Part shown: positions 3,138 through 10,010 of the stretch, piece by piece
How positions within the stretch are numbered: position 1 is the stretch's first letter
Layout: every line of letters starts with the position of its first letter
NCBI GenBank assembly: GCA_934526125.1
Contig: CAKSZU010000070.1
Location: forward strand, 1 to 11,081
Direction: 5' to 3'
Length of the DNA stretch: 11,081 bases
Origin: an uncultured Faecalibacterium sp.
GTDB lineage: Bacteria; Bacillota; Clostridia; Oscillospirales; Ruminococcaceae
Made by a program: the position numbers and the translations under genes
Notes under the pieces: generated by a model
What the model saw: only the letters and a program-made list of their open reading frames with translations
Database searches by the model: none
What the model was told of the DNA's origin: nothing

Positions 3138-3197
3138 CGCCAAACCCTTCTTTCTCCGAAATGCACCGAAATACCATCGGAATTCACAAAATGTTGA

Positions 3198-6466: not shown

Positions 6467-6505
6467 CTGCCGCCGCAGGGAATTTCTTGCTTTGTTTCTG
6501 CTATG

Positions 6506-6530
6506 CTCCCGGGATTTCCCGGGAGTTTTT
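6506..6530 (+). terminator. Intrinsic terminator after hcp
   Basis: A perfect 8-bp stem, CTCCCGGG with CCCGGGAG (6506-6513 and 6518-6525), closes a 4-nt ATTT loop and is followed by TTTTT. It lies 40 nt after the hcp stop and separates hcp from the surface protein gene. Confidence 0.9.
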
Positions 6531-6683: not shown

Positions 6684-6712
6684 TTGTATTTCCGAACATC
6701 CGATGCTACTAT
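6684..6712 (+). promoter_or_regulatory. Candidate promoter of the surface protein gene
   Basis: TTGTAT (6684-6689) and TACTAT (6707-6712) are 17 bp apart, giving a start near 6719 and a leader of about 46 nt. The match to the housekeeping consensus is only moderate. The segment TACTATATT is repeated exactly at 6732-6740, so a second -10-like element lies 25 bp downstream. The Shine-Dalgarno AGGAGG (6749-6754) lies 10 nt before the ATG. Confidence 0.45.
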
Positions 6713-6718
6713 ATTAGC

Positions 6719-6735
6719 AGTACACAAGATGTACT
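6719..6735. promoter_or_regulatory. Inverted repeat at the predicted start of the surface-gene transcript
   Basis: AGTACA and TGTACT form a perfect 6-bp inverted repeat around a 5-nt CAAGA spacer. It begins at the transcription start predicted from the upstream promoter. As DNA it could be an operator that blocks RNA polymerase; as RNA it would be a 5'-terminal stem that could protect the message. Neither role is proven. Confidence 0.4.
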
Positions 6736-6764
6736 ATATTTTAGAAAGAGGAGGAGAAAAAATT

Positions 6765-9752
6765 ATGAAAAAGAGATGGTTCGTAGTGATACTTACCATC
6801 GGATTGCTGCTTCGTGTTCTGCCGCTGAGTGTACTTGCACTGAGCCCCGACCCCATCACGAATGCGGACGGCACCCTTCTGGACTGGAGTGACCTTTCCA
6901 CCGTTTCCGACTCCCTTGATGATTTGCAGGAACAGCGGCTCGCTGTCGTGGATGCAAAACCCGGCACGGCTGCTGCTCCCGGCCTTTCGGAGGCGGGCCC
7001 AGAGAACCCCCCCCCCCTTGCGGATGCGGACCGCGATAAAGCAGCAGCGGATGACCGGAATCTCACCCCCAAAACTCCTGACGAGGAAACGGATGACGAT
7101 GCCCCTGCGGACGACACCGGCAGCACCGGCAGCACCGGCAGCACCGGCAGCACCACACCCCCGGCTGTGTGCAAGATCGGCGATAGTTCCTACTCCACAC
7201 TGGACGAGGCGATCCAAATGGCAGTGAAAGGCGACCAGATCGACCTGCTGACGGACATTGAGTGGGATGCGGGTCTTCGCTTTGAGAACAAGAAGCTGAC
7301 CATTTCCGGCGGCAATACCTACACGCTGACGCTGGAGCAGTATGGCATGTATGCGTATAAGAGTGATATCACGTTCCAGGATCTCACCCTAACCATTAGC
7401 GCAATTACTCATACCTATGAAGGCGGCGCAGGCGGTACGGCCAACCTGATCAGCAATTCTGATCTGCATCTGAACAACGTTGACTTCACGTTGACTCCAG
7501 AAGGTTCCTGCGGAAGCGGTATGTACCTGTATCAGCAGAGCAATCTGTATCTGGATGGGTCTCGAGTCTTGATCAGTGGCAACATGGTTGACGGCATCTT
7601 CGCTGATGAATCAGAGTATGTGGGTATGCCCAATCGTGAGGTCAAGATCATGAACGGTTCCTATGTCGAAGCCCGCGGCTGCAGTCATGCTGGCATACTG
7701 CTTGACCCCATTGACATTACAATGTCTTCTTCCGAAGTCTTCGTGACTGGCAATGGCGTCGGCTACAGTTTTGGGTTTTCCTGCTATGACGGTAAGCTGA
7801 CCATGGAATCGTCCATCCTCAGGGCAGATGATAATGCTCACGCTTGGTCGGGTTCTGGTATTTATGTCGGTGCTCTTGATATGGATGCTGCTTCCACAAT
7901 ATATGCCACTGACAACGGTGGCTCTGGTCTTACCATCGGCGCTGCTGACGGCAAGGAGAAAAGCTATATTCGCGGACAGATTTACTGTGAGGGCAACGGC
8001 ACATCCGGTATTGGCGGCGGCGGCGGTTTTGTCGTACACGCACAGCACGACTATTATGAGGACGAAGACAAATGGTACATCTATGAAGGTGATGTGACCC
8101 TAGAACCCGGTGCGTATATCTACGCCTGCAACAACAAGGCCCTGGCTGGCGTTTTAAACAACTGGATTCTGAACATTGAAAGCGGTGCAACCGTCATTGC
8201 CGATAACAACGAGCAGTTTGGCTTTGGCAACACTTATGATGCCCGCACTACCATTGAAAGCGGCGCAGATGTCTCCATAAACAACAATCTGCACGGTCTA
8301 TACAACTACGCTGGCGATGGCAACACCGAATGGGCAAAGGGCTTTTTCCTCATCGAAGGTGGCGCACATGTCACTGTCAACAATAATAAGCTCTATGGCA
8401 TCTACACCAGCGGTGGTTCTGACACTCCCGATAACGACTACTTTACGATTCAGGGCGGTGCAGATGTTTCTGCTGACGGTAACGGAGCCCACGGTATTTA
8501 CAATGACGGCGGTATTTTCACCGTTGAAACCGGCGCAATCGTTTCTGCCTGCAATAATGGCTACTACGGTATTTTTAACAACAAGGGAACGTTTACTGTA
8601 GAAAACGGCGTCGACCTGCAGGTCGAGTACAACAAAGAGAGTGGCGTTGTCAATGTTGAGAATTCAAAGTTGACTCTGCTCTCCGGCTGTGTCCGTTATA
8701 ACACCACTAAAAATTTCTATGGCTACGGCGGCGGTCTCCGAAACTATGGCGAAGCTACTCTTTCGGATGATGTGCAGCTGTACAACAACCATGCAAGACT
8801 TGCCGGTGACGACATTGAGAACGGCAATGGTGCCACCATTACCTTTGGCCCCACCGGCAGCGGCTGGGAGCTGGACGGCGGACCGGACTGCTATGATTTC
8901 ATTGACGGCTGGTATGACGACTATGAAACCACCCGCTGGAATGCCCATGAGGAGGACGAAGCGAAGCTGCACATGGTTCTCGTCGCACCCGTCACTTCTT
9001 ACACCGGCCCCCTGTCCCTCAAGGCCGCACACGGCAGTCTCTCCACCGGCAGCCTGACCGTCCGCAAAGAGACGGTCGGTGAACTGCTGCCGAGCGACTA
9101 TGACACCGCGTTCACCTTTGAGCTCACGCTGGAGGATGATACCATCACCACGATCGACGACCAATGGTGCGGTGTCCCGTTCAAAAACGGCAAGGCATCT
9201 TTCACCCTGAAAAGCGGCGAGAGCATCACGCTCTCGAACCTGCCCGCAGGGATCGGCTATACCATCACCGAAGCCGCTCAGGACGACTGGACCCTGCTGA
9301 ATATCAACGATGCAGAGACCGGCGTTGTGCCCCGGAACGACACCGCCGAGGTCGTCTTTACCAACCTGAAGAACAACCTGGACATCCCCGATGTTCCGGT
9401 CGTTCCCATAGAACCGGAGGAGCCCGAGATCCCCGAGGAAACCGAGGAAACAGAGACCCCCGAGGAGCCTGAGGGGCCGGAGATCCCCCAGGAGCCTGAG
9501 GAGCCCGAGATCCCCGAGGAAACCGAGGAAACAGAGGCCCCCGGCGAACTGCCTGCGGAGGAACCGGCTCAGACTGACACGTCCGCGTCGTTGGCCCAGC
9601 CGGAGGAAACGCCCACGCAGAACACCACGACCGTGACCCTGATCCAGACCGGTACCACCGATTGGCTGGCTGCCGTGCTTCTGATCTTTGGCATCGGTCT
9701 GTTGGCATGCGGGTGGTTCTTCGACCGCAAACAGCGTGCCGCAAAGCACTAA
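6765..9752 (+). CDS. Cell-surface protein: beta-helix, isopeptide-type domain and sortase-like anchor
   Basis: This 995-residue exported protein starts at the ATG preceded by AGGAGG, which yields the signal peptide MKKRWFVVILTIGLLLRVLP with probable cleavage after Ala25. Residues 26-130 are an acidic, proline-rich linker with P82-84 and four T-G-S units (118-129). Residues about 136-695 form a right-handed parallel beta-helix. Its rungs recur at 471, 497, 530, 562, 587 and 612 with the pattern I/V-E-x-G-A-x-V, then an Asn pair, then GIY/GIF. Residues about 762-870 resemble a Spy0128/CnaB-type domain, with K768, E836 and N867 placed for an internal Lys-Asn isopeptide bond. A Pro/Glu stalk (about 872-950) leads to LIQTG (959-963), a membrane helix (968-986) and a basic tail, as in sortase substrates. 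The likely role is adhesion or glycan binding; I see no catalytic site. No sortase gene is in view. The middle is richer in A+T than its flanks. Confidence 0.85.
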   Translation: MKKRWFVVILTIGLLLRVLPLSVLALSPDPITNADGTLLDWSDLSTVSDSLDDLQEQRLAVVDAKPGTAAAPGLSEAGPENPPPLADADRDKAAADDRNLTPKTPDEETDDDAPADDTGSTGSTGSTGSTTPPAVCKIGDSSYSTLDEAIQMAVKGDQIDLLTDIEWDAGLRFENKKLTISGGNTYTLTLEQYGMYAYKSDITFQDLTLTISAITHTYEGGAGGTANLISNSDLHLNNVDFTLTPEGSCGSGMYLYQQSNLYLDGSRVLISGNMVDGIFADESEYVGMPNREVKIMNGSYVEARGCSHAGILLDPIDITMSSSEVFVTGNGVGYSFGFSCYDGKLTMESSILRADDNAHAWSGSGIYVGALDMDAASTIYATDNGGSGLTIGAADGKEKSYIRGQIYCEGNGTSGIGGGGGFVVHAQHDYYEDEDKWYIYEGDVTLEPGAYIYACNNKALAGVLNNWILNIESGATVIADNNEQFGFGNTYDARTTIESGADVSINNNLHGLYNYAGDGNTEWAKGFFLIEGGAHVTVNNNKLYGIYTSGGSDTPDNDYFTIQGGADVSADGNGAHGIYNDGGIFTVETGAIVSACNNGYYGIFNNKGTFTVENGVDLQVEYNKESGVVNVENSKLTLLSGCVRYNTTKNFYGYGGGLRNYGEATLSDDVQLYNNHARLAGDDIENGNGATITFGPTGSGWELDGGPDCYDFIDGWYDDYETTRWNAHEEDEAKLHMVLVAPVTSYTGPLSLKAAHGSLSTGSLTVRKETVGELLPSDYDTAFTFELTLEDDTITTIDDQWCGVPFKNGKASFTLKSGESITLSNLPAGIGYTITEAAQDDWTLLNINDAETGVVPRNDTAEVVFTNLKNNLDIPDVPVVPIEPEEPEIPEETEETETPEEPEGPEIPQEPEEPEIPEETEETEAPGELPAEEPAQTDTSASLAQPEETPTQNTTTVTLIQTGTTDWLAAVLLIFGIGLLACGWFFDRKQRAAKH
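7007..7017 (+). repeat. Homopolymer of 11 C's inside the surface protein gene
   Basis: Eleven consecutive C's span the last base of Asn81, three proline codons and the first base of Leu85. The gene is in frame with 11. Losing one C would move ribosomes to a frame that stops at 7225-7227 (TGA). Gaining one would give a stop at 7037-7039 (TAA). Either change removes the beta-helix and the anchor, so the tract can act as an on/off switch. Confidence 0.95.
7116..7151 (+). repeat. Four tandem 9-bp units ACCGGCAGC
   Basis: Four exact, in-frame copies encode Thr-Gly-Ser repeats at residues 118-129, just before the beta-helix. Gain or loss of a unit would change linker length without breaking the frame. 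Confidence 0.95.
9417..9536 (+). repeat. Exact 39-bp direct repeat in the Pro/Glu stalk
   Basis: The 39 bases at 9417-9455 recur without change at 9498-9536, offset by 81 bp (27 codons), with a related 42-bp segment between them. Each copy encodes a 13-residue Glu/Pro/Thr block ending EETEETE. Recombination between the copies would shorten or lengthen the stalk in frame by 27 residues. Confidence 0.95.
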
Positions 9753-9945: not shown

Positions 9946-9963
9946 AGAGTCATCGGAACAAAG

Positions 9964-10010
9964 GCGTTCCAGAGGGGCATCCTATGCCCTTCTGGGGCGT
10001 CTTTTTGTTT
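9964..10010 (+). terminator. Leader terminator or attenuator before glutamate synthase
   Basis: A 17-bp stem (9964-9980 with 9984-10000, including four G-U pairs) with a 3-nt loop is followed by CTTTTTGTTT. It begins about 12 nt after the predicted start of the TATAAT promoter and ends 50 nt before the gene. It belongs to no gene end: the surface gene already has its own terminator at 9780-9830. It therefore fits a leader attenuator, or the end of a short RNA of about 55 nt. Confidence 0.75.

Follow-up and report, generated by a model that had tools for sequence, protein, structure and literature searches.

The DNA analysed here, positions 1 to 11,081 of contig CAKSZU010000070.1 (assembly GCA_934526125.1) of an uncultured Faecalibacterium sp., is called the window throughout. 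It carries a gene for an exported sortase-type surface protein of 995 residues (6765..9752), and in the 5' part of this gene there is a run of 11 C's (7007..7017); all positions refer to the window and all of its features that are given with positions below lie on the + strand. We consider it highly probable that this C11 tract is a slippage-prone reading-frame switch, through which a cell-wall-anchored surface protein undergoes phase variation. The comparison of the tract in relatives, which the earlier note on this DNA had suggested, revealed near-identical alleles with open and with shifted frames, the shifted ones ending where the window predicts. Slippage-type switching, as that note had proposed, is thereby strongly supported across natural populations.

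According to the mechanism that we propose, DNA polymerase would add or drop C's by slipped-strand replication, changing the frame beyond the run. With 11 C's, and also with 8, the whole protein would be made, exported and anchored, and lengths in the other two frames would give an N-terminal peptide of approximately 90 to 153 residues, devoid of the predicted beta-helix and of the anchor. As the tract lies in a predicted disordered linker, changes of three C's would alter only the number of prolines. A population would then be a mix of cells with and without the surface protein. We infer slippage as the cause of the length changes, as well as their reversibility and rate, the loss of the protein from the surface and its role as an adhesin.

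The tract and its reading frame

The 11 C's that the earlier note had placed at residues 81-85 of the 995-residue protein were found exactly there: the run starts on the third base of codon 81, spans codons 82-84 (PPP) and ends on the first base of codon 85. A pure homopolymer within the reading frame and in its 5' part (codons 81-85 of 995) is what is seen in homopolymer phase-variable genes. Its uniqueness was likewise borne out, since C11 is the sole run in the window of at least 7 C/G or at least 8 A/T. When the window was re-read past C11 in each frame, both early stops that had been described were recovered: one C more, or two fewer, leads to a stop at 7037..7039, and one C fewer leads to another at 7225..7227, so that length changes not divisible by three cut the protein short. 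In dinucleotide-preserving shuffles of the window, a C11 on either strand was reached in 3 of 200 (mean 0.03), and for this reason independent evidence is needed. Taken alone the tract is unusual without being decisive, which makes it modest evidence, and it is the relatives that carry the case.

Open and shifted alleles among the relatives

To look at the relatives, the N-terminal 150 residues of the window protein were compared with 5.8 billion predicted proteins, taking as candidates those of approximately 82-262 residues. This short-form search matched 461 short proteins, of which the best 120 were listed. Long homologs numbered 1851 at E <= 0.001, and the best 120 of them, 960-1122 residues long, were listed. 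The protein collection was clustered at 90% identity, and tract lengths were inferred from the proteins assuming CCC codons.

Under this assumption, an open tract of 11 C's is present in 7 of the 120 long homologs listed (P0001-4, P0024, P0028 and P0041), and one of 8 C's in another two (P0027 and P0057). Among the short proteins, P0121 ends in ENPPPCGCGPR, which corresponds to the frame predicted for 9 C's and to the stop at 7037..7039, and P0123 and P0125 read on as ENPPPLRMRTA, the frame predicted for 10 C's that in the window runs to the stop at 7225..7227. Upstream of the tract, P0121 is identical to the window protein in 80 of 81 residues and P0123 to the open 11-C form P0028 in 81 of 81; P0125 agrees with P0028 in 74 of 81 and is therefore less close. 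At the protein level, then, the tract varies among 8, 9, 10 and 11 C's in 12 relatives, with open and shifted states.

Many relatives carry, in further modules of the linker, a run of C's followed by a run of A's, for which the three possible tails give the base count. We counted this sister tract in 325 proteins, using only the tails named in the pattern (IPDE, AS and SLLTR tails left out) and dropping rows in which MKKRW did not occur within the first 60 residues. The inferred open lengths were 13 (n=198), 19 (n=2), 22 (n=6) and 25 (n=5). The shifted ones were 12 (n=1), 14 (n=15), 18 (n=5), 20 (n=3), 21 (n=9), 23 (n=14), 24 (n=26), 26 (n=5), 27 (n=17) and 30 (n=2). When the proteins were sorted by prefix, 196 groups were obtained; 36 had at least two members and 10 of them contained both states. 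In a single 78-residue background the sister alleles displayed seven inferred tract lengths, of which two leave the frame open and five shift it.

A shift in a C-run tract, as judged by the tail pattern, was observed in 144 of the 205 short forms examined; this number applies with no rows dropped, and it becomes 143 if the 5 of 205 rows in which MKKRW is missing near the start are removed. In the first 120 short forms, 77 were tract-shifted, and the other 43 included contig ends, chimeras and shifts elsewhere. Where the longest contig exceeded 10 kb, the tract-shifted forms were 47 of 55. The shifted form P0276 has 87 members on 22 contigs, the longest of 178,273 bases, from the sources ncbi, lgn, ena and uniref; P0289 lies on a contig of 802,418 bases and P0313 on an NCBI contig of 681,869 bases from Faecalibacterium duncaniae. 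A different kind of short form was also seen: P0134, P0136, P0141, P0157 and P0172 stop at a common place ahead of the beta-helix (...ITAATDGD) where no C run is present.

A control was provided by an ortholog that has no tract. Among 31 genomes of the genus one whole-length ortholog was found, locus L001, in whose linker no C run of at least 7 was found and the prolines of the tract are also lacking. The same short-form search with the N-terminus of L001 gave 369 matches; in the best 120 of these, which were listed, 13 short forms were of the L001 type (by eye), and none of the 13 fitted the tract pattern.

Alternative explanations

Several observations weigh against a switch or limit what can be concluded. 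The control is small (n=13), and its forms include, by eye, frameshifts at other places, of which three lie close to a single site (..TISG..), and a form, P0249, that is perhaps shifted in a short CCCC run. In the genus, 9 of 31 genomes match at E <= 0.001, and the only whole-length match, in genome G001, is a gene without the tract; P0001, the closest relative among the matches listed, does not differ from the window in tract length. A C11 arising by chance in such a window is rare, not negligible. The 61 of 205 short forms that were unmatched as tract shifts are contig ends, chimeras and other shifts. Furthermore, the searches list the best 120 of 461, 120 of 369 and 120 of 1851 matches, the short-form searches cover truncations of approximately 82-262 residues, and a collection clustered at 90% identity does not yield ON:OFF frequencies. 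The tract-bearing relatives are known from their proteins alone, and the lengths given for them rest on assumed CCC codons.

It should also be considered that homopolymers are a common site of sequencing errors. The shifted relatives could be artefacts of reading or assembly at C or C/A runs, with real cells mostly open, and such errors could account for some of the shifted forms. Trouble with Illumina reads at G tracts is reported in a paper on Bifidobacterium (PMC9187656). Against this, shifted forms recur over contigs and sources, as P0276 with its 87 members on 22 contigs illustrates; short C5A4 runs are shifted too (15 of length 14 and one of length 12, versus 198 open of length 13); and the inferred lengths span 12 to 30 nucleotides, with seven found in a single 78-residue background of identical sequence. 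We judge it improbable that artefacts explain the pattern. An equally small probability is given to one-way decay, by which many strains would be losing the gene through frameshifts that fall in C runs, without a reversible switch. The 61 short forms lying off C runs, some with other defects, and the presence of a whole-length ortholog in only one of the 31 genus genomes would fit such a process. However, there are many long homologs (1851 at E <= 0.001), and in-frame expanded tracts are found among them (13 open, 19-25 nucleotides); identical backgrounds are common to open and shifted forms in the 10 prefix groups with both states; and within the length range searched the defects cluster at tracts (144 of 205).

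Both RNA polymerase slippage and ribosomal frameshifting are known to occur on long homopolymers, and through such leakage some full-length protein could be produced from any allele, the run setting its amount instead of an on/off state. This is unlikely as the whole explanation, although we rate it a little above the two just discussed; even so, DNA-length variants, found by inference in all three frames, would still modulate the output. Less probable than any of these is that the C run arose by chance from a proline stretch in a GC-rich gene and is a functionless by-product. The 3 shuffles with a C11 speak for it; against it, relatives show that a change in length does disrupt the protein and, as described below, runs of at least 9 in the genus (61) exceed those of exactly 8 (19). 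A slippage-driven switch remains, in our opinion, the reading to be preferred.

Architecture and surroundings of the gene

The reading frame begins at the ATG at 6765, in agreement with homologs that start with MKKRW, and its stop codon is at 9750-9752. By eye, a ribosome-binding-site-like GGAGGAG is found upstream of this ATG (6750-6756). There is another in-frame ATG upstream of the likely start (6729-6764, MYYILERGGEKI), where some predicted relatives begin, and GGAGGAG is located after it.

The earlier note had described an exported surface protein, possibly an adhesin, and the features found are those of a surface protein. Residues 1-25 (6765..6839) resemble a signal peptide, with a helix at 2-25 in the model. 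They are followed by a predicted disordered, hypervariable and acidic linker that holds the slippage tract (residues 26-130, 6840..7154; pLDDT below 50 at 18-129), and linker length and modules vary among the first 59 of the 120 homologs listed. In this linker we also found a second short run, C5A4 (7066..7074), such a run being shifted in some relatives (end ..NLTPQNS), and a 9-bp tandem repeat encoding Thr-Gly-Ser in 4.4 copies (7115..7154), with in-frame length variation. P0001, of 992 residues, differs from the window protein by being three residues shorter in this repeat and is otherwise identical. Since the repeat differs in P0001 and the linker is variable, the open state tolerates in-frame changes.

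The body of the protein, at approximately residues 134-695 (7164..8849), is predicted by an AlphaFold2 model and by structure matches to be a right-handed beta-helix, comparable to the binding region of SRRP-like adhesins. Downstream, a DUF7601 domain (residues 762-867, 9048..9365; Pfam PF24547, E 3.2e-16), related to streptococcal pilin and Spy0125 domains, is followed by a spacer rich in Pro and Glu with a 27-bp tandem repeat (9412..9543, low model confidence). The C-terminus presents a LIQTG sorting-type motif (9639..9653; LPQTG in the ortholog L001), then a hydrophobic helix (residues 966-994) and a basic tail. The combination of helices at 2-25 and 966-994 with an LPXTG-type motif that varies in its second residue is that of a sortase-anchored protein, the signal peptide being judged from the sequence and the modelled helix. 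In addition, LxxTG occurs within the last 60 residues in 120 of the 120 long homologs read. As to a sortase, the relative G001, which is not the window's own genome, has two PF04203 matches above the cut-off.

Terminator-like hairpins were located by sequence scan after the upstream gene (6505..6526) and after the surface gene (9960..10004). Given the first of these, the surface gene probably has its own transcript. A possible promoter, TTGTAT-17 nucleotides-TACTAT (6684..6712), was recognised by eye and has a similar counterpart in L001 (TTGTTT-17-TAATAT); it is absent from the promoter scan's listing of the window. The gut anaerobe supposed in the earlier note is supported, since the ortholog of the gene and the neighbouring murD indicate Faecalibacterium. 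In 396 genomes drawn from the family, with two candidates scored in each, there was no further close ortholog; 11 of the 396 matched at 1e-15 and, besides G001, only partially. Viral contigs contained no relative detectable by alignment or by an N-terminal DNA pattern.

Long C and G runs in the genus

Exact C runs were counted on either strand in eight genomes, each with a first contig that makes up approximately the whole genome (G003, G004, G015, G018 and G028-G031; loci L060-L116). There were 1865 runs of six bases, 76 of seven and 19 of eight, but 61 of at least nine; the latter were distributed over lengths 9, 10, 11, 12, 14 and 23 as 28, 18, 11, 2, 1 and 1, the longest (23 bases) being in G003 (L060:2449-2471). 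A curve that falls and then rises suggests that long C runs are a maintained or self-expanding class.

Evidence at the DNA level that the length of a C run differs between species of the genus comes from a conserved site, GTTA-C(n)-GAAAATAAATAG; its 9 occurrences, spread over 8 of 31 genomes, have identical flanks, and n is 10, 9, 9, 11, 9, 11, 6, 10 and 9. This site (for instance in L070, L095, L110 and L112) is found right at the end of a gene which, by eye, resembles a hybrid sensor kinase/receiver. Other long runs were found in genes for acyltransferases and hexapeptide transferases and in exported-protein leaders, and some of the 61 in neither.

C9-C10 runs are placed 29-34 bases ahead of the start codon at L079:2333-2341, L080:2432-2441, L081:2503-2512 and L090:2420-2429. 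The genes behind them encode exported proteins with signal-peptide-like N-termini, and in three of them the run is preceded by a similar flank (..GTAATRCATA). These leader runs are possible expression switches. Poly-G runs inside acyltransferase (PF01757) or hexapeptide transferase genes occur at L064:2500-2508 and 3170-3178, L093:2456-2466 and L097:2497-2507; such genes are candidate phase-variable glycan-modifying genes, the runs of L064 being in-frame. We make no claim that long C runs are placed after a -10 box: at least 5 of 6 matches were seen in 3 of 61 runs and at least 4 in 13 of 61, a weak signal, and the background in the same loci was 0.8% and 8.7%, respectively, for C4 runs and 0% and 7.1% for C5 runs.

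With chances that we put slightly short of even, these runs could belong to a genus-wide set of poly-C switches comprising exported-protein leaders, glycan acyltransferases and surface proteins. In the surface protein family described here the linker would consist of modules that are shuffled, several of them with a slippage tract of their own, so that recombination would renew the switch and slippage would flip it.

Significance and comparison with known systems

Few beneficial gut bacteria have been studied as much as Faecalibacterium, and the surface differences between its strains are not easily explained. Counting C's would score the state of the surface protein in existing metagenomes, where selection by host, diet or phage could be tested, and short hypothetical proteins annotated at such genes may be OFF alleles. 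If the genus-wide switches are real, a bacterium that is among the commonest in the human gut would have a phase-variable surface.

Homopolymer phase variation is already known from other bacteria, and the Faecalibacterium surface gene would be an added case. In the literature searched, mostly outside subscription journals, there was no report of homopolymer phase variation in Faecalibacterium; in PMC11792537 the sole mention of phase variation found concerns Bordetella.

The closest precedent is that of the sortase-dependent pili of Bifidobacterium breve UCC2003 (bbr_0113 and bbr_1889), likewise a gut commensal. According to the report on them (PMC9187656), the length of an intragenic G tract decides whether the Sec signal and the LPXTG parts are joined, as we propose here, and mixed tract lengths occur within a population. 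As the B. breve pilus genes work likewise, the Faecalibacterium tract would belong to a known kind of switch. The likeness lies in the layout of the tract and, on the Faecalibacterium side, is read from sequence. In B. breve, however, the tract is of G and lies in a pilin that heads a pilus operon, whereas in Faecalibacterium it is of C on the coding strand and lies in a single-gene protein with a predicted beta-helix. The poly-C and poly-G genes of Neisseria and Campylobacter are also comparable, with a homopolymer in the reading frame, slippage and an on/off outcome; they differ in that the hosts are Gram-negative, the proteins are others and the switching is in part experimentally confirmed (PMC5084427, PMC4965091).

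As regards the protein itself, the predicted beta-helix is close to the binding region of the serine-rich repeat adhesin SRRP of Lactobacillus reuteri (PDB 5ny0 and 5nxk). Identity is 14%, the Faecalibacterium protein has no serine-rich repeats, and a common fold is no proof of common binding. The C-terminal DUF7601 region, in turn, is like a domain of the pilus-presented adhesin Spy0125/Cpa of Streptococcus pyogenes (2xic and 2xi9), with a profile match at E 7.6e-8 (profile positions 781-866) and the first rank in Foldseek (E 2.0e-6). Unlike in Spy0125/Cpa, the window gene has no adjoining pilus genes, and the match extends over approximately 85-155 residues only.

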